24,075 bases of DNA. It comes from a virus. The DNA is taken from the IMG/VR virus record IMGVR_UViG_3300042197_002764, positions 1-24,075 of that record, one strand, 5' to 3'. The notes beneath the pieces were generated by a model, which made no database searches, was not told the DNA's origin, and worked only from the letters and a program-made list of their open reading frames with translations. Shown here in pieces: positions 4,984 through 23,764 of the stretch (the stretch's first letter is position 1; each line of letters begins with the position of its first letter). The translations under genes and the position numbers were made by a program.

Positions 4984-5001
4984 TATTTTTGTTCACCTCT
5001 T

Positions 5002-7065
5002 TTATTTAAGTGGTTGTCTTGCATCTATTCCGTAATATTTGGCTAACGAATTAAAAGTATTCAATTTGTTTTGGTCTTGCATCATATAATCAAAATCTGC
5101 TTCAATCAGCTTTTGTTTAATAAATTCAGCTTCTTTAATAATTTCTTCTTGGCTTTTGTTATTGCGTGTATCGTTTCGTTTTACAGCGTCTAAAGAAATT
5201 GCATCATAATCTTTATTATTGGTCGCTTCTTGTAAGAAATATGATTTAAGTGTAGGCAAATCGGTAACATATTCCTCACCATTTGATAATGTTTCGTTTT
5301 TCATTTTATCTTTATTGATACGGTTAATGATGTTCTGCGTAAAAGCTTTTGCGTTTTCTTTTGCTTCCGTATTTGCAGTAGCTTCTTGTTTACTCAACGA
5401 AAGACTGTTTTGGTATGCTCTTGTTTTATGCCAATCGTCATAAACTTTAGCAGATTCTTTTTGAAAGTTTAAGATGCTCTGTTCACTTGCCCCTGCTCGT
5501 TTCATTTCTCTTATTTTGCTTTGTGTGAGTAAATTAAATTTAGGCTCTGACATTTCTTCTTCGTTCAACATTTTGCTTAATGCCTGCGTTTGATTAAAAA
5601 CAAAAGCATCTTCTTTCACTTGGTTACTTTTTTCTTGTTCCTTTTCTTGTTTTTCCTGTTGTTTAAGACCTAATTCAGCATTAAATTTATCAACACCAAA
5701 TTTATAATCTCTATCTTTTAAACCTAATTCCGTATTAAACTTATTAACTTCAAGTTGATAATCTCTATTTTTTAAACCTAATTCCGTATTAAACTTATTA
5801 ACTTCAAGTTGATAATCTCTATTTTTTAAGCCTAATTCAGCATTAAGTTTATCAACGCCAAATTGATAATCTCTATTTTTTAAGCCTAATTCAGCATTAA
5901 ACTTATCAACACCAAATTGAAAATCTCTGTTTTTTAAACCTAATTCAGCGTTAAATTTATCGTTTTCAAGTTTTTGTTGGGATAGTTTATCTTGTGTGTT
6001 TAATTTTTGGTTGTAGTTGTCTATCATCATTTTCCCTAAATTGTTTCGCTGTTGCCCTTCTTGTCCAATTATCCCAAACGCTTGGTCGTTTATTTGTTGT
6101 TGAATTTTATTTTTAAAGTCCATTGAACGCTGACTTAAATCGGATAACTGTTTGTCGTTTTCCATTCCTATTTGCATCGAGCGTAAAGCATTATCATCCA
6201 TCGCCTGATTTTGCATTTTTGCAAAATTAACAGCCATATCGCCCAATTGTCCACTAAACACCCCTGATGTATCTAAACCTCTCATCGCTAAAGCTTGTGC
6301 TAAATCACCACTTGCTTGTTGTCGTTGTTCGTTGATTGAATTGGTTTGTTTATTTAAAGCGTTTTCTTGAAATTTTTTCGATAGTTCAAGCTTTTGTTGA
6401 AGATAATCTCTTTCTTTATTTAAAAACGATTCGTTGCTTTTTATGGTGGGTTGATACATACTTTCTAGCATTTTTGATTTGCTCGCAAAATTATCTTGTG
6501 TATAATCAGCAGGAGCAGTTGCAAGCTGTGTGCCTAAAGTGATTGGATTAACATACGCTTTCCCATTAACCGTTGTGTATTGGTTAGGGTTAAGCAACAT
6601 TCCTGCGACATCAATTGTTTTGTTTTCAGGGTTATAAATAGCGTTTACATAATCCGTCAATTTGTCCGTATCTTTTGGGGGTTGATTAGCAGTAATATGT
6701 TTCATTGTGGAGTTACCATTTACTTTTTGACCGACAGAATTAACATTTTGCAAGGTATTGCCTGCGTTGATTTGATTTTGAATATTGGTTATTTTTTGTG
6801 TCGTTGGCGACTTCGGAACGGTTTGCAAGTTAGGGTTTACTTCCCCTTTTCTATATTCGGTCGTTGTCGTATTTTTATTTCTGTTGTCTTGCATTTCTTT
6901 TAACTTGTTCATTAAATCTATTCTTTGCCCTGTGGATTGTGGTGGGTTTGCATTATATCTGCCAATACCATTCATCAACATACTCGCTTGTTGATTGCCT
7001 TGTGTTGTTGGATTACTGCTGTTTAAACGCTTTGATTTGTAATTATTGCCAAAAGGATTATACAA
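5002..7065 (-). CDS. Gln/Asn-rich helical structural protein with 18-residue repeats, 687 aa (candidate internal virion protein)
   Basis: The frame can be opened to a GTG at 7074, but the site AAAAGGGGTGG sits on that codon. With normal 5-nt spacing it points to the TTG at 7065 (MYNPFGNNYKSK), which I chose. Residues 1-150 are Asn/Gln/Thr-rich and probably disordered. Residues about 215-360 are helical and contain LAMRGLDTSGVFSGQL, a glycine-centred motif I associate from memory with phage structural proteins. Residues about 370-470 hold five full and one partial copy of an 18-residue repeat. The C-terminal 200 residues are charged and helical. The start overlaps the preceding gene by 8 bp and the giant gene follows after 18 bp, suggesting one transcript and coupled translation. 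No catalytic motif is visible. An internal or ejection role is inferred from context; a scaffold-like role is an alternative. Confidence 0.85.
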   Translation of the reverse strand: MYNPFGNNYKSKRLNSSNPTTQGNQQASMLMNGIGRYNANPPQSTGQRIDLMNKLKEMQDNRNKNTTTTEYRKGEVNPNLQTVPKSPTTQKITNIQNQINAGNTLQNVNSVGQKVNGNSTMKHITANQPPKDTDKLTDYVNAIYNPENKTIDVAGMLLNPNQYTTVNGKAYVNPITLGTQLATAPADYTQDNFASKSKMLESMYQPTIKSNESFLNKERDYLQQKLELSKKFQENALNKQTNSINEQRQQASGDLAQALAMRGLDTSGVFSGQLGDMAVNFAKMQNQAMDDNALRSMQIGMENDKQLSDLSQRSMDFKNKIQQQINDQAFGIIGQEGQQRNNLGKMMIDNYNQKLNTQDKLSQQKLENDKFNAELGLKNRDFQFGVDKFNAELGLKNRDYQFGVDKLNAELGLKNRDYQLEVNKFNTELGLKNRDYQLEVNKFNTELGLKDRDYKFGVDKFNAELGLKQQEKQEKEQEKSNQVKEDAFVFNQTQALSKMLNEEEMSEPKFNLLTQSKIREMKRAGASEQSILNFQKESAKVYDDWHKTRAYQNSLSLSKQEATANTEAKENAKAFTQNIINRINKDKMKNETLSNGEEYVTDLPTLKSYFLQEATNNKDYDAISLDAVKRNDTRNNKSQEEIIKEAEFIKQKLIEADFDYMMQDQNKLNTFNSLAKYYGIDARQPLK
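5662..5955 (-). repeat. Tandem 54-bp repeats (5.4 copies) encoding an 18-residue helical unit
   Basis: Units start at 5955, 5901, 5847, 5793 and 5739, with a partial 24-bp unit at 5685-5662. The consensus peptide is FNAELGLKNRDYQFGVDK; two central units read QLEVNK instead of QFGVDK, and FN alternates with LN. Eighteen residues equal five turns of an alpha helix, so each repeat would present the same face of one long helix. Synonymous and non-synonymous differences separate the units, so the array has been diverging under coding constraint. Confidence 0.9.
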
Positions 7066-14451: not shown

Positions 14452-14460
14452 CCTTATTTA

Positions 14461-14514
14461 TACGCTATTGATACGCTATTGATACGCTATTGATACGCTA
14501 TTGATACGCTATTA
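14461..14514 (-). repeat. Five tandem 11-bp repeats between capsid stop and terminator
   Basis: The plus-strand unit TACGCTATTGA starts at 14461, 14472, 14483 and 14494, with a 10-bp partial at 14505. The four full copies are identical. The last partial copy runs into the capsid TAA stop (14512-14514), which is followed in frame by TAG. The period is close to one helical turn, so a protein would see each copy on the same face. It is 9 bp upstream of the terminator stem on the plus-strand map. Confidence 0.95.
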
Positions 14515-15866: not shown

Positions 15867-16577
15867 TTACAACAACCCCTGCTGACGCAAATAATCCCTG
15901 AACATTTTCCCACCTTGCTGAATGTTGGTTATTTTTTCAGGAACATTAGGGGCATAATTCCCTCTCGGTTGATTTCCCATAAGCTTTGCATTTGGTTGAT
16001 TTTTTTCATTGACATAGTTTTTAATGATTTCGTTTTTTACTTTTTCATTCTTGACGATTTCATTCATATTGATTGATTTGTTAGACATTCCTCTTGCTAG
16101 GAAATATAAAGTTTCTAATGAGTTCGGCAAATTTGCTAATTCAGGTCTTTCATCAAGCAACTCCGTCATTTGCTGTTGGTAATCAAAAAAATCGTTGTGC
16201 TTGTCGGATACTGTCTTAATTTCTTTATCTAAATCTTGATTGCGTTTAAAATCGTCAAAATCTCTTTTTGCGTGTTCCATTTCACGCTTGGCTTCTTCAA
16301 TGGCTTCTCGCTTAATATCATTAAACAATTCAATGGGATTGGTGTAAAATCGCTCTCTAATCCGTTGAGATAACTCCTGCTTTTCTTCCTCGCTCATTTC
16401 TACTGCTTTTGGTTCTTCTTTCGGTGTATTCATAGCTTCTTCTAATTGCATAATTCTTCTGCTTTGTTTTTCTATCAAGTCCAAATATTCGCTTGTTTTA
16501 TCGGCTGATTGTTGTGTTTCTTCTTGATACACACCACTTTCTATTTCCTCATACAATGGATTGTTAATATCGCTCAT
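15867..16577 (-). CDS. Scaffold protein, 236 aa
   Basis: It would direct capsid assembly and then leave the prohead. The protein is highly charged and almost wholly helical: an acidic N-terminus (NNPLYEEIESGVYQEETQQ), coiled coil at about 28-50 and 62-125 (EEEKQELSQRIRERF, REAIEEAKREMEHAKRDFDD), and a short C-terminal domain ending KMFRDYLRQQGLL. P22-type scaffolds bind coat through a basic C-terminal helix-turn-helix; the Arg/Lys-containing end here could serve the same way. It lies immediately before the capsid gene, the usual place. The start ATG at 16577 has GAGGGGAAT upstream and overlaps the phospholipase gene by 14 bp. There is no protease motif. The assignment rests on composition and position. 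Confidence 0.82.
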   Translation of the reverse strand: MSDINNPLYEEIESGVYQEETQQSADKTSEYLDLIEKQSRRIMQLEEAMNTPKEEPKAVEMSEEEKQELSQRIRERFYTNPIELFNDIKREAIEEAKREMEHAKRDFDDFKRNQDLDKEIKTVSDKHNDFFDYQQQMTELLDERPELANLPNSLETLYFLARGMSNKSINMNEIVKNEKVKNEIIKNYVNEKNQPNAKLMGNQPRGNYAPNVPEKITNIQQGGKMFRDYLRQQGLL

Positions 16578-17508
16578 ATTCCCCTCGCCCTTTCAAATAG
16601 TCAATTGTTGAAGTATAACCACTTTCAAATAATTCGTTTTTTTGAGTATCCGACAATGAAAAATCGGTTGTTCTTATATTTAAGCTATCAATATATACCG
16701 TTCGCCCTTTGTCAAGGTCATTCCCTTTGTGCTTGTTATCTTCATTATTCATAAGTGCCGACAATAACGATTTAATAAAATCTCCGAAATTCTTGATTTC
16801 TTTTGCTTTTGGTTTCTGTCCATCTTTTAAAATTCTTAATTCTGATGATGATTCTAATTTAAAACCCAATGTTTCAGGATTAAAGTAATAGCCTTCGCCT
16901 AATCCTAAATAGCGTTTGTCATCAAATAAATCAATAGGGTAATTATCAAAAACTCCACCATCAACATAAATATCATTGGTAATGCTATGCCGATAAGCCG
17001 AAAAAAATAAAGGCAAACTCATGGATATTCTTACTGCATCCACGACTTTCATTTGTGGTGTCGTTTCGTATGAAAAAATCTCCGAATAGCCACTCGATAA
17101 ATTTGAACCGATTAAATACAAATGTTTTGCTTTCCCTTCTTGCACCAAATCGTTCAAGTCTTTAAAAGTCATATCTTCATAGTTGGTATAGTCGAATATT
17201 ATTCGTTTACACCAATTGTAAAACACTTCCCCCTTGTTCCATCCAAAACGCTTGATTAAACGGTACATATCCCTAAATATACCAAACTTATTATCTTTAA
17301 AATCAATTAAATTTAACTCATACATGACTCTACTTATATCCTTTGAAGAAAGGTTCAAACAAATTAAAAGTGAAATAATTGCACCTGCCGATGTTCCCCC
17401 TACACGCTGAACAGAAGATAAATGCCCACTTTGTTCTAATGCTTTAATCACCCCTGCGTAAGCAATCCCTTTGACTCCACCCCCTTCAAAAACAATGTTA
17501 GTTATCAT
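16564..17508 (-). CDS. Patatin-like phospholipase (acyl hydrolase), 314 aa
   Basis: This family cleaves acyl chains from membrane lipids with a Ser-Asp dyad. The key parts are intact: the oxyanion loop GGGVKG at residues 9-14, the nucleophile elbow GGTSAG with Ser40, and DGG with Asp183 in IYVDGGVFDNYP. The helix after the nucleophile and the SLPLFFSAY segment (about 164-172) also fit. There is no signal peptide or membrane helix, so it acts in the cytoplasm or from the virion. The start ATG at 17508 follows AGGGGGAT, overlaps the portal end by 11 bp and runs 14 bp into the scaffold gene, so it is translated as part of the head operon. Whether it serves lysis, infection or lipid remodelling cannot be told. 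The family is secure; the role is inference. Confidence 0.92.
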   Translation of the reverse strand: MITNIVFEGGGVKGIAYAGVIKALEQSGHLSSVQRVGGTSAGAIISLLICLNLSSKDISRVMYELNLIDFKDNKFGIFRDMYRLIKRFGWNKGEVFYNWCKRIIFDYTNYEDMTFKDLNDLVQEGKAKHLYLIGSNLSSGYSEIFSYETTPQMKVVDAVRISMSLPLFFSAYRHSITNDIYVDGGVFDNYPIDLFDDKRYLGLGEGYYFNPETLGFKLESSSELRILKDGQKPKAKEIKNFGDFIKSLLSALMNNEDNKHKGNDLDKGRTVYIDSLNIRTTDFSLSDTQKNELFESGYTSTIDYLKGRGEYERY

Positions 17509-19806: not shown

Positions 19807-20106
19807 CTATTTCGCTTTTTTTGGTGGTTTTGTTTTAAGTGGCTCTCTCGGTTTTCGTGGTGGCTTTGTTATCACGACTAATTCTTTATCTTCTGTTTTC
19901 AACGGTAATTCTTCAACTTCTTCTTCCTGTTGATATTCTTCTAATATTTGTTCAATCAAATTATCTATACACGATTTACAGTAACAGTTTGCTCCTATTA
20001 AACTGTAAATGTCGCCCCCAATATAATGATTACCCCAACTTGAACAAGTATGATTGCTACAAGGTGCTACTGTTCCATATTGGAATAACTTTAAACTTCT
20101 TCGCAT
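19807..20106 (-). CDS. Cys-rich small protein, possible zinc-binding, 99 aa
   Basis: The frame can be opened to a GTG at 20115, but GCAGGTGG points to the ATG at 20106 (MRRSLKLFQYGTVAPCSNHT), which shares one base with the terL stop (TAATG). Residues about 16-55 contain CSNHTCSSWGNH and CYCKSC, enough Cys and His for one zinc site. This is followed by an acidic helix (IEQILEEYQQEEEVEEL) and a Pro/Lys-rich tail (KPPRKPREPLKTKPPKKAK) that could bind DNA or RNA. It sits between terL and the portal. I do not recognise the family. An accessory packaging role is inferred only from position. Confidence 0.65.
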   Translation of the reverse strand: MRRSLKLFQYGTVAPCSNHTCSSWGNHYIGGDIYSLIGANCYCKSCIDNLIEQILEEYQQEEEVEELPLKTEDKELVVITKPPRKPREPLKTKPPKKAK

Positions 20107-21440
20107 TAAGTCCACCTGCTTTCGTTTTCTTTTCTTCTTTTTGATACCTTTTTCTTATGTTTCTGAATAAGCGTTAATTCCTTTGCTTTTTCTTTTGATT
20201 TTCGTGGTCTTGACATAAAAAAATAGCGACAACTCTCAACAGCGTGGTCATCACTATCATCGGATATATCTTCTAATTTATGCTTGTGAAATTGCTGAAT
20301 GGGTATGGTACGAATAAGGTTTTTGCAAGTAGAAAACACTTGCCAATAAGGAAGTCCATCAGGAGCGTTTGACATGACCTCTCTCATTCGTTGCCACCCC
20401 AAAACACGCTGATTGTCGGCTTTGATGAACGGAACACCCAATCGAGCAAAAGTGTCTGCAATACTTTCCCCCATCGAGTCGTTTCCTCGTTTTGCCCACA
20501 TATCAGGGCTTCCTACAAAATATTCTATTTTTTCGCCTTTGCTGTTGTCTAAGATAATTACAGCTAAATCTTTAACCAAAGTCTTATTAATGTAAACCTC
20601 TTTATAGGTGTAATAACGCCCATCTTCATCAGCACAATGCCAATAAATCGCACAAGCGTCATTGTAACCAAAGTCCATAGATACCCATCTACGCCAATGT
20701 TGAGGAACATCAAAAGGTTCGACCATGTGTGTTTGTCGTTTCCATTCCGAAAAGAATTGCCCCTCGAATATATCCCAATCCCCATAAAGAAACGCTCTAC
20801 GCTGGATTTCAGGGAGATTTTCAAGAGTGGTCACATATTCAGGGTTGTTTTCCATCAGTATCTTATTGTCATAGACGGTTGCAGGAATAAAAGTATAATC
20901 CTCTGATTTTTCTTTGTTTTGATAATCTCGGTCAATAAACAACCGTTTAAACCAATTGTGTCCTACTCCACTAGGATTTGCTGTATAATAGGCTCTCGGT
21001 TTAAAATCATCTCTTGTCGAACGGTTACAAGTCAAAATAAAGTCTTTCATAAACTCTGTAAAATGAGTGGCTTCTTCAAAACCAACGACATCGTATTCCT
21101 GTCCTTGATATTGGTAGACATCCCCCTCTGTATCACAGTACCCTAATTTAATGCGACTTCCGTTTTGAAATTCAAAGGCGTTTTCGTGTTTATGATATTT
21201 GGCGACTCCGTATAAGTATTTCATCAACGGTAAGGCGTGATTTTCTCTTAATTCAGGCATCGTTCTTCTTAATAGCAAAAGCTTTAATCCTTTAAAGTTA
21301 AACGCAAGAATAACGAATAGCGTTCGCATTGCCCAAGACTTTCCCCCACCCCTTGCCCCACCGTAACCGATGTGCCTTGTTTTTGCTTTAAAGAATTGGA
21401 GTTGTCTTTCATTAGGCTTCTCAATCACCATTTTAGGCAA
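20106..21440 (-). CDS. terL: Terminase large subunit, 444 aa
   Basis: This is the motor that pumps DNA into the prohead and cuts it. Counting from the internal ATG at 21431, Walker A is GGARGGGKS at 24-32, Walker B with catalytic Glu is VVGFEEA at 115-121, and the coupling motif YTANPSG is at 149-155. The RNase H-like nuclease has acidic residues in SMDFGYND (Asp253), VGSPD (Asp310) and DDSDDHAVESCRYF (about 391-404). All are intact. I chose the TTG at 21440 because GGGTGA lies 5 nt before it, whereas the ATG at 21431 has no site in range; either is possible. It overlaps the upstream gene by 8 bp and shares its stop with the next start. Confidence 0.95.
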   Translation of the reverse strand: MPKMVIEKPNERQLQFFKAKTRHIGYGGARGGGKSWAMRTLFVILAFNFKGLKLLLLRRTMPELRENHALPLMKYLYGVAKYHKHENAFEFQNGSRIKLGYCDTEGDVYQYQGQEYDVVGFEEATHFTEFMKDFILTCNRSTRDDFKPRAYYTANPSGVGHNWFKRLFIDRDYQNKEKSEDYTFIPATVYDNKILMENNPEYVTTLENLPEIQRRAFLYGDWDIFEGQFFSEWKRQTHMVEPFDVPQHWRRWVSMDFGYNDACAIYWHCADEDGRYYTYKEVYINKTLVKDLAVIILDNSKGEKIEYFVGSPDMWAKRGNDSMGESIADTFARLGVPFIKADNQRVLGWQRMREVMSNAPDGLPYWQVFSTCKNLIRTIPIQQFHKHKLEDISDDSDDHAVESCRYFFMSRPRKSKEKAKELTLIQKHKKKVSKRRKENESRWT

Positions 21441-21804
21441 GCGATTCACCCACTTTAATGGTAGATTCTTCACAAAGCTTGAACATTTTTTTAGCAATTT
21501 CGTTTACATATTTTTTGTTTAAACGCATAATTTTTAACGCTTTTTTTGTTTGTGTTACTCTTGTTTTTCCCACTCTCAATTCTTCTTCTGTTATCGTTTC
21601 TAACAAAGTATCTTTTGCTTGTTCTGTGATTTCTTTTAATTCTAACTCCGTATGCTCGTAGTTAATGTGAATATCTGAATAAGCAAAGCGTTCAGCAATT
21701 TCAATTTTAACTTCCTTTTTCACTTTTTTCCGTTCGTTATAAATCGTTTTCCAAAAGCGAAACTCATTCCAATTCTTTTTAAGTTTAGGATAGCGATGTA
21801 CCAT
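21433..21804 (-). CDS. Small basic helical protein upstream of terL, 123 aa
   Basis: The frame reaches a TTG at 21843, but AAAGGAG seven bases before the ATG at 21804 clearly decides the start (MVHRYPKLKKNWNEFRFW). The protein is basic and mostly helical: a Lys/Arg/Trp-rich opening, an acidic middle (HTELELKEITEQAKDTLLET) and a basic helical end (TRVTQTKKALKIMRLNKKYV). Such charge fits nucleic-acid binding, but no HTH or zinc motif is convincing. It is the first gene of the main packaging/head block, with a shared promoter-like element about 55 bp upstream, and it overlaps terL by 8 bp. The family is unknown. Confidence 0.75.
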   Translation of the reverse strand: MVHRYPKLKKNWNEFRFWKTIYNERKKVKKEVKIEIAERFAYSDIHINYEHTELELKEITEQAKDTLLETITEEELRVGKTRVTQTKKALKIMRLNKKYVNEIAKKMFKLCEESTIKVGESLA

Positions 21805-21856
21805 TTGGTTTCTCCTTTCTTTTTTTATATTATTGTATTGCAAAACACAATAGGTC

Positions 21857-21929: not shown

Positions 21930-21947
21930 CAGCGTTATTTAACGCTG
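21930..21947. other. Perfect 8-bp inverted repeat over the transglycosylase stop
   Basis: CAGCGTTA-TT-TAACGCTG spans the stop codon (21935-21937). Neither side has a convincing T-run, so it is not a standard terminator. It could stabilise the 3' end of the message or bind a protein. Confidence 0.5.
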
Positions 21948-22453
21948 TTTATCGTGTTACGAGTATCGGCTTCACGCATCTTGCTTTTAAGCATATCGGT
22001 TGCTTTAAAGTCGCTTGCAAACTTTAAGACTTTTTTAGAGTACGAGGAAACGGTTGTTTTGTTTTTATTCTTGTACTTTTTCATACCAAATTCCCCACGA
22101 TTGTAAGCTGTTAAAGCCGAGTGCCAATCTCCGTATTTTGATTTTAAGTCCATTAAATGTAGCTTCGATAGTTTCTTTGAATAGTCAGGATTGGTTAGTT
22201 TTTTCTCGTCATAAGGAACATTGTACTTTTCTGCAACTGCTTTTGCAGTAATCGGCATCAATTGTGTTAATCCAATTGCCCCTGCACTTGATACAGCATT
22301 AGGGTTGCCACTACTTTCTGCCATAATTAATCCTTTCATCACTTCGTCTACACTTAGTTCCATTTTTTCACCTCTATTTCCCTGTACTTGATTTTCAAAT
22401 ATTATCGGTGAGATAAAAAGAAGCGTTATTAAAAACACTTTATTTAATTTCAT
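21935..22453 (-). CDS. Lytic transglycosylase (SLT-type), 172 aa, with a strong internal start at 22363
   Basis: It cleaves the glycan strand of peptidoglycan. The SLT fold motifs are present: catalytic Glu46 in MAESSGNPNA, SAGAIGLTQLMP at 56-67, and ALTAYNRGEFG at 113-123. The long form begins MKLNKVFLITLLFISPIIFE, a plausible export signal, but its ATG at 22453 has no ribosome site and overlaps the upstream gene by 14 bp. The ATG at 22363 (Met31) has GAGGTGAAAAA just upstream and gives a 142-residue enzyme without the signal. Both forms may be made. The enzyme could help DNA entry from the virion or act in lysis; there is no cell-wall-binding domain. It follows the winged-helix gene and ends before the packaging block. 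Confidence 0.85.
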   Translation of the reverse strand: MKLNKVFLITLLFISPIIFENQVQGNRGEKMELSVDEVMKGLIMAESSGNPNAVSSAGAIGLTQLMPITAKAVAEKYNVPYDEKKLTNPDYSKKLSKLHLMDLKSKYGDWHSALTAYNRGEFGMKKYKNKNKTTVSSYSKKVLKFASDFKATDMLKSKMREADTRNTINSVK

Positions 22454-22972: not shown

Positions 22973-22988
22973 TATTCCAATAGGAATA
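22973..22988. promoter_or_regulatory. Inverted repeat over the weak ribosome site
   Basis: TATTCC-AATA-GGAATA has 6-bp arms and a 4-bp spacer, the same spacing as the larger palindromes upstream. On the message it would pair the GGAA in front of the ATG at 22970, so it may limit translation or be a third operator of different sequence. Confidence 0.45.
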
Positions 22989-23016
22989 AATTTAGAGTGT
23001 CATTTTTGACACTCAA
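22989..23016 (-). promoter_or_regulatory. Candidate promoter P2 with operator in its spacer
   Basis: The minus-strand -35 TTGAGT (23011-23016) and -10 TAAATT (22989-22994) are 16 bp apart. The palindrome GAGTGTCA-TTTT-TGACACTC (22995-23014, 8-bp arms) fills the spacer. A protein bound there would block polymerase. Confidence 0.45.
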
Positions 23017-23022
23017 ACAGCG

Positions 23023-23051
23023 AATATAGTGTCATTTTTGACACTCAACAA
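23023..23051 (-). promoter_or_regulatory. Candidate promoter P1 with identical operator in its spacer
   Basis: The minus-strand -10 TATATT (23023-23028) lies 17 bp from a weak -35 TTGTTG (23046-23051). The second copy of AGTGTCATTTTTGACACT (23028-23045) fills the spacer. The two operators are exactly 32 bp apart, about three helical turns, so bound proteins would face the same side. Confidence 0.5.
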
Positions 23052-23085
23052 AAAAACTCAAAATCATTGTGAGAGAATGACTTTG
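23050..23085 (-). terminator. Rho-independent terminator after terS
   Basis: On the minus strand CAAAGTCATT and AATGATTTTG form a 10-bp stem (one G-U pair) around loop CTCTCAC, followed by AG and seven T's. The plus-strand side also leads into a T-rich run, so it may work in both directions. It insulates terS from the downstream control region. Confidence 0.75.
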
Positions 23086-23198
23086 AATTTTATTTTTTGT
23101 TTAAAAATGATAGCTTGTATCTATATATATACTAGCTTACACTCGTAAACGGAAAAGCGTTTCATAAAATTATCCATGAAATAGGTAAAATTTACTCA

Positions 23199-23729
23199 TT
23201 AATTGACTTCAAAATCTTCACCAATAATGTCGGCATCCACGATTTCATTCCAATCTTCTTCGTTCCCATCAAAAGAAATTTGAACATTCATGTTATGCTC
23301 TACTCGGTCAAGAAACATTCCTTGACTTCTTGCTAACAGTTCAGACGCTTTTAAACGGTCTTTTACACTCATCTCACAATTCCTGATGATGTCTGTCCAA
23401 AACCCTCTGATTTGTTTGATGTCCAACACATTTGTTGCTTCTGCTAAAGCATTTATCTGTCTTGTCGATTCAATGTATTCCCTTATCTTTCTGCTTCTTA
23501 GTAGCTTGTTGCTCAATGCTGATGTATCACTAGGTCTTTTATCGTGACAATTGTAAGCGTTTCGATAGGCTTGCATATGATTCCCTGTTTTCATATATTC
23601 ATCTGCAAACTTCTTCTGCTTTTCTGTCATTTCGTATTTCTTATTGCTAGTCGTCAATGGGGCGTTTCTAATCACCGTTACCCCATCTACCACTTCTGTA
23701 TAAGGCGTTTTTATCGGATATTTTGACAT
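23199..23729 (-). CDS. terS: Terminase small subunit, 176 aa
   Basis: It recognises phage DNA and recruits the large subunit. The core EMTEKQKKFADEYMKTGNHM, continuing QAYRNAYN, is the helix-turn-helix of Terminase_2-type small subunits, followed by SNKLLRSRKIREYIEST, a central oligomerisation region, and an acidic C-terminus. The frame opens at a GTG at 23741, but GGTGGTGAT in front of the ATG pair at 23732/23729 shows the true start; the second ATG has the better spacing. It is separated from terL by the regulator and transglycosylase genes, which is unusual, and it has its own promoter-like box and terminator. Confidence 0.88.
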   Translation of the reverse strand: MSKYPIKTPYTEVVDGVTVIRNAPLTTSNKKYEMTEKQKKFADEYMKTGNHMQAYRNAYNCHDKRPSDTSALSNKLLRSRKIREYIESTRQINALAEATNVLDIKQIRGFWTDIIRNCEMSVKDRLKASELLARSQGMFLDRVEHNMNVQISFDGNEEDWNEIVDADIIGEDFEVN

Positions 23730-23764
23730 CATTATCACCACCCAATATTTATTAAAATTGTTAT

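Follow-up and report, generated by a model that had tools for sequence, protein, structure and literature searches.

Introduction

RepA_N replication initiators (PF06970), such as those of pSK41 and pTZ2162 and the RepA of the Vibrio cholerae PLE, carry an N-terminal winged helix-turn-helix (wHTH) domain, and their sites are described as semi-palindromic repeats that converge on a poly-A tract (PMC7145576). The MarR/MepR autorepressors share the wHTH fold and likewise have a palindromic site ahead of their gene. ArpU and RinA are late activators found in Gram-positive prophages at the head of the terminase operon, a position that they and Xpf have in common with the gene described here. RepL (PF05732) resembles this gene's product by eye in its size and in having a wHTH with a Y-x-N-P motif. 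The PHROGs v4 family phrog_31110 is listed with neither a function, a gene neighbourhood nor an operator, and our search of open-licence PMC text found no paper on this protein family or on the twin site reported below.

Here we analyse a 24,075-base stretch, the complete IMG/VR record IMGVR_UViG_3300042197_002764 (hereafter the window), in which a pair of identical palindromes precedes the gene of a 176-aa wHTH protein between the genes for the small (terS) and large (terL) terminase subunits. An AlphaFold model built from eight sequences (mean pLDDT 75.5; most of the wHTH part exceeds 80), used in place of a single-sequence prediction with a pLDDT of 37.7, consists of a winged helix and a beta-rich N-terminal part of low confidence. 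Its best matches among solved structures are the RepA_N N-domains 4pql (Z 8.0, rmsd 2.3 over 78 residues), 4pt7 (Z 7.4) and 5kbj (Z 7.2), nearly tied with MepR (Z 7.0) and other wHTH chains between Z 8.0 and 7.0; MepR/MarR chains score within 1-2 Z of RepA_N. At the level of sequence, none of the nine family members defined below matched PF06970 in Pfam at E 0.1, ArpU and RinA families were absent from their Pfam, PHROGs and NCBIfam matches, and the window protein had no Pfam match to a MarR profile and none to RepL at E 1. In contrast to RepA_N initiators, the window protein lacks a C-terminal domain and is surrounded by terminase genes in place of a replicon; its beta-rich N-terminal part sets it apart from MarR/MepR, and its twin operator, unlike the arrangement of ArpU, RinA and Xpf, precedes the regulator's own gene. 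The sites of the window and of two relatives (L187 and L218) do have the layout described for RepA_N sites, semi-palindromic repeats that converge on a poly-A tract (PMC7145576).

Results

The twin palindrome and its surroundings

The 18-bp palindrome AGTGTCATTTTTGACACT occurs in two exact copies, at 22996-23013 and 23028-23045, with a start-to-start distance of 32 bp (Table 1). A reading made from the sequence alone had described two identical palindromes three helical turns apart, directly ahead of a winged-helix gene and in the middle of a late region, and all of this is borne out: the pair is exact, it stands directly upstream of the wHTH gene, and it lies between terS and terL. The search of the remaining phage sequence that had been proposed returned no further copy, even with up to three mismatches, in the entire record, against an expectation of 0.05 copies from shuffled sequence, where two copies were reached in none of 100 shuffles. 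The direct repeat that the two copies form extends to 24 nt at 96%. Two near-identical contigs, L003 (99.7%) and L004 (99.99%), carry the same pair and, because of this near-identity, do not constitute independent evidence.

Table 1. Positions of the twin palindrome and neighbouring features in the window.
Feature	Position	Strand	Description
O1, gene-proximal operator copy	22995..23014	.	20-bp perfect inverted repeat GAGTGTCATTTTTGACACTC, 4-bp A/T centre
O2, distal operator copy	23028..23045	.	18-bp palindrome identical to that of O1, 32 bp away start-to-start
Weak candidate promoter, O2 in spacer	23023..23051	-	TTGTTG-17-TATATT, 8/12 consensus, chance level
Weak candidate promoter, O1 in spacer	22989..23016	-	TTGAGT-16-TAAATT, 8/12 consensus, chance level
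Third inverted repeat TATTCCAATAGGAATA	22973..22988	.	6-bp arms; probably background or leader hairpin
Terminator-like hairpin	23053..23091	-	16 pairs and T-rich tail, between terS and operators
wHTH protein, 176 aa	22440..22970	-	phrog_31110 member (PHROGs: unknown function)
terS, terminase small subunit	23199..23741	-	Pfam Terminase_2 2.1e-13, phrog_51 3.9e-19
SLT lytic transglycosylase	21935..22453	-	Pfam SLT 5.5e-22; overlaps end of wHTH gene
orf136, 136-aa ORF	21433..21843	-	No family match at E < 0.001
terL, terminase large subunit	20106..21497	-	phrog_979 7.7e-50

The late region runs on the minus strand in the order terS, wHTH, SLT, orf136, terL, portal, patatin-like protein and capsid. 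The relatives begin at a codon that corresponds to GTG 22952, so the wHTH gene may truly start 18 bases downstream of its annotated start, in which case the site-to-start distances given below would each be longer by 18. Within the head-gene cluster, a patatin-like phospholipase gene (16564-17508, Pfam 6.6e-35) has the portal gene on one side and a scaffold-like ORF on the other, and five head-to-tail copies of an 11-bp unit, TACGCTATTGA, directly follow the capsid gene stop at 14457-14513, beside a terminator-like hairpin.

The sequence-only reading had also placed each palindrome inside a promoter spacer, and this is suggestive at best: hexamers do flank each copy, but at 8 of 12 consensus positions, which lies under the cut-off of our promoter scan, they are at chance level, and real promoters are left unsupported. 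Three such hexamer pairs fall within 170 bp, no excess over chance, as 186 of 500 shuffles contained as many, and when the palindromes were kept in place and their flanks shuffled, 43 of 1000 trials put 8/12 hexamers around both. The third inverted repeat proposed over the ribosome site does exist, but a role as a separate operator is unsupported since further inverted repeats with 6-bp arms occur within the same 300 bp, which makes it probable background. For the terminator-like hairpin the RNA fold is -13.6 kcal/mol (z -4.57, equalled by none of 200 shuffles), and its location between terS and the twin sites suggests that terS may be transcribed separately from the genes downstream. As RNA, the palindromes themselves are predicted to form strong hairpins (z -3.9); the best match to a known RNA element at the site was a snoRNA at 21.1 bits, below its threshold of 46.

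Occurrence of the palindrome in other genomes

Single copies of the 16-mer GTGTCATTTTTGACAC were present in 68 IMG/VR stretches and those of a scrambled control palindrome in 61, and on this chance-level frequency we reject a host-wide or common phage motif. Clusters of at least two near-copies were found in 10 of the 68 stretches and in none of the 61 controls; these 10 include two contigs of the window's own phage as well as some weak second copies, and the clear clusters elsewhere lie inside or before unrelated initiator-like genes. Pairs of TGTCAWWWWTGACA occurred in 29 stretches among 84,980 genomes, and the many kinds of neighbours beside them indicate that different regulators use this class of letters.

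The same palindrome, as GTGTCAAAAATGACAC, is clustered inside phage genes, where it codes for V-K-N-D-T-like linkers (L005:602-1324, L029:7759-8481, L032:51-788 and L087:11938-12519); the first three genes are O-like or HTH_36 replication initiators, the fourth has no family match, and the clusters look like in-gene iterons. In two unrelated phages, a 113-aa ORF (L006:8963-9304) and a 121-aa ORF (L008:3606-3971) between terS-like and terL-like genes hold 9-10 GTGTCA/TGACAC half-sites in about 400 bp, with one full palindrome among them. Two TGTCATTTTTGACA palindromes 24 bp apart (L030:4861-4898) stand ahead of a 383-aa ORF (4991-6142) built up from similar units in repetition; a gene close by resembles ThiF/E1 by eye. 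Three GTGTCATTTTTGACAC-like palindromes, one of them a variant, lie near an Xre-type repressor gene in a prophage-like stretch of a Nitrospirae MAG (L054:1339-1394).

The protein family

Searches with tblastn in phage and plasmid collections returned no annotated relatives of the window protein, and a direct viral scan with it returned just two identical copies. Among 398 genomes from the phylum of a Lachnospiraceae MAG there was one clear distant relative, L183 (the same prophage as L187), at 26% identity. Profiles derived from L183 matched in 4 of 189 genomes of its order and 8 of 380 of its class, in none of 291 genomes of another class, and in 8 of 300 genomes of the class of Schwartzia, largely genomes already found. 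As Schwartzia belongs to the Negativicutes, that class is the Negativicutes, and a host from this class is likely for the phage. An alignment-based viral scan added L216-L218 and L220-L222, along with the same-phage contigs L003 and L219.

In total we distinguish nine stand-alone members: the window, L189 (=L208, L216), L197 (=L209), L199 (=L210), L217, L218, L220, L221 and L222. They are 27-39% identical to the window protein, and every one matches the phrog_31110 profile (best 2.3e-121, window protein 5.7e-11). In other relatives (L183/L187, L190, L198 and L200) the wHTH precedes a primase-like region, with PHROG replication or primase matches for three of the four, and in L191 it lies beside a primase-like ORF by eye. 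We left out L184, L185, L186, L203, L204 and L207 as other proteins with HTH-like stretches or without clear relation, kept L205 and L206 (a frame with a stop) outside the family counts, and excluded L226 (a 56-aa fragment), L229 (a frame with a stop) and L202/L230 (371 aa) from the operator tests, in which L211-L215 stand in for L198, L200, L191, L190 and L183/L187, respectively; L188, L193-L196, L201, L208-L216, L219, L223-L225, L227 and L228 duplicate genes already counted or cover them at greater length.

The link to terminase genes runs through the whole stand-alone set: each of the nine either precedes terminase genes or is placed between terS and terL, in most cases directly or at most three genes off, and eight adjoin a terminase gene or sit no more than two genes away. 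The order terS-wHTH-terL is found in L218, L221 and L222 and also in the window, there with SLT and orf136 before terL. In L216, L197 and L199 the wHTH gene comes before both terS and terL (terL of L197 and L199 by eye), in L217 three other ORFs separate it from a terS-like ORF (by eye), and in L220 it is followed by an HNH-like ORF and then terL. The 807-aa terL of L220 (L220:1867-4290) is split by a LAGLIDADG homing endonuclease domain that is probably an intein.

Candidate operators of the relatives

For each stand-alone member we scored the strongest repeat in the 300 bp upstream of the gene. In five of the nine (four of eight without the window), the strongest repeat is spaced at exactly 32 bp, as between O1 and O2: the window (14/14), L218 (14/14, GGACATTTTTGTCC), L221 (14/14, TGGAACATAAACGTCCCA), L222 (13/14, GGCAAnnnnTTGCC) and L199/L210 (12/14, GGAACAAAAACG; weak alone, as 16 of 200 shuffles reach it). 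The same arrangement recurs in the primase-linked L187/L215. Some of the 32-bp members look mutually closer, so these cases are not fully independent. Among the five stand-alone 32-bp members the half-sites differ (AGTGTCA, GGGACA, GGAACA in two members, and GGCAA), and between 13 and 52 bp separate the nearer site from the presumed start codon. The best repeat of L189/L208 (TTGCGCAAATGCGCAA, 14/14) is spaced at 68 bp and accompanied by half-sites, and L197/L209, L217 and L220 have no significant upstream repeat within 300 bp. Inspection by eye shows a degenerate 31-bp pair in L220 and, in L197, inverted half-sites TTTGATACGA/TCGTATCAAA at a distance of 33 bp; L197 and L217, both without a 32-bp pair, are close to each other. 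As background, the stand-alone loci contained 140 repeat pairs in 110 kb, of which one was at 32 bp and 10 were at 31-33 bp.

A stricter test, for pairs of perfect palindromes in nine regions (174 kb), identified four places, each upstream of a family gene: the window (32 bp), L213/L191 (31 bp), L214 (33 bp) and L215/L187 (32 bp). Five of the nine regions had none, and the control of 139 unrelated viral loci (1.19 Mb) had two, one of them fetched because it bore the motif. In L214 and L215 the strict pair stands about 430-470 bp upstream of the gene, away from the promoter; immediately before its 151-aa wHTH gene, L214 carries another 33-bp pair that is less perfect. Among the primase-linked members, neither L211 nor L212 nor the 585-aa gene of L214 has a pair of its own. 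In L187 (=L215) a further palindrome copy lies inside the gene, coding for V-A-N-A-T.

Operator copies within one or two mismatches are restricted to the wHTH upstream region in each 5-24 kb locus, bar isolated imperfect matches; the exceptions are one match in L218 (two mismatches), one in L214 (one mismatch) and the in-gene copy of L215. The twin site tracks the wHTH gene whether this is placed after terS (window, L218, L221, L222) or before it (L189/L216, L199). Three members, L199, L218 and L221, carry K-R-G in what is likely the recognition helix and have GGRAC-type half-sites in the same register, though they may be close relatives. In L218 the inner operator halves continue as an 11-bp hairpin with a T run behind it (L218:2923-2950), a possible attenuator; the same scan showed no such terminator-like hairpin in the window, L210 or L222.

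Discussion

Our findings point to the twin palindrome as the private operator of the 176-aa wHTH protein, which would repress its own promoter and at least part of the wHTH-terL unit, a reading to which we assign a probability of about 0.6. Binding of the protein to its own twin sites is well supported by the comparison: the letters vary from member to member as the pair stays before its own gene, which points to that gene's product as the reader, and the constancy of the 32-bp spacing amid changing letters suggests a need for two dimers to share one DNA face. Each palindrome would take one dimer, with one wHTH per half-site, and the two dimers, three turns apart on the same face, would bind cooperatively and occupy the core promoter in the interval from the terS terminator-like hairpin to the start codon of the wHTH gene. 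Repression is inferred, being the simplest outcome of a nearer site that, at 13-52 bp from the start, would cover the core promoter or leader; the protein would then hold down its own promoter and, at least partly, SLT, orf136, terL and perhaps later genes. The compact self-regulated switch first proposed from the sequence is therefore retained in its central part, a self-regulated node being strongly favoured by the relatives' own, differently lettered pairs at 31-33 bp, but not in its real promoters or its separate third operator, both of which are unsupported.

The same protein and sites could instead activate the wHTH-terL operon, making the protein a late-gene activator with positive feedback. 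The position of all nine stand-alone members relative to the terminase genes and the poor consensus match of the promoter elements, as is common for activated promoters, are consistent with this, but we consider it unlikely, as the downstream site, 13-52 bp from the start codon in the five 32-bp members, would sit too far downstream to activate in the classical way if a single start served both, and no more operator copies precede other late genes in the window. Specific paired palindromes with terS and terL always nearby could also constitute a pac- or cos-like packaging site, to which the wHTH protein, as a third terminase component, would guide the terminase. This we regard as improbable: the twin site follows the wHTH gene rather than terS, the primase-linked relatives carry the same pair before a replication gene, and the window terS has an ordinary Terminase_2 domain. 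These primase-linked pairs, together with the repetition of the same palindrome within the initiator genes of the unrelated phages L005, L029 and L032, would fit an iteron-type replication site read by a small initiator, to which we give equally little credence, given that there are only two sites, that they lie in a late region, that the protein lacks an initiator C-terminal domain and that the L197/L209 prophage has its own replisome organizer (PF09681, 3.3e-25), though L197 is without the pair. That the palindromes work as RNA hairpins, as an attenuator or translational operator and not as DNA sites, is very improbable despite their strong predicted folds and the hairpin of L218, which the other members scanned do not share, as a constant 32-bp spacing is a feature of the DNA helix.

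The wHTH protein that we favour as the repressor at this operator looks derived from the DNA-binding domains of replication initiators and was apparently recruited to the terminase genes to act as a regulator. More speculatively, phrog_31110 as a whole may represent an undescribed class of terminase-linked, initiator-wHTH-derived regulators, each with its own twin-palindrome operator in which the letters are free and the three-turn spacing is fixed; we put this forward tentatively. If true, its members could serve as naturally occurring, mutually orthogonal switches for the timing of terminase expression, or could even mark DNA for packaging.

In summary, this work provides a proposed function, a gene neighbourhood and a candidate operator that are new for phrog_31110, and with them a testable function and target site for a protein family that PHROGs lists only as of unknown function. 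The protein-operator pairs, with at least five different half-sites at one fixed spacing, may allow a wHTH recognition code to be read by comparison. Our findings also suggest that a step of regulation is located between terS and terL, and that replication initiators are connected in evolution with the control of packaging genes.
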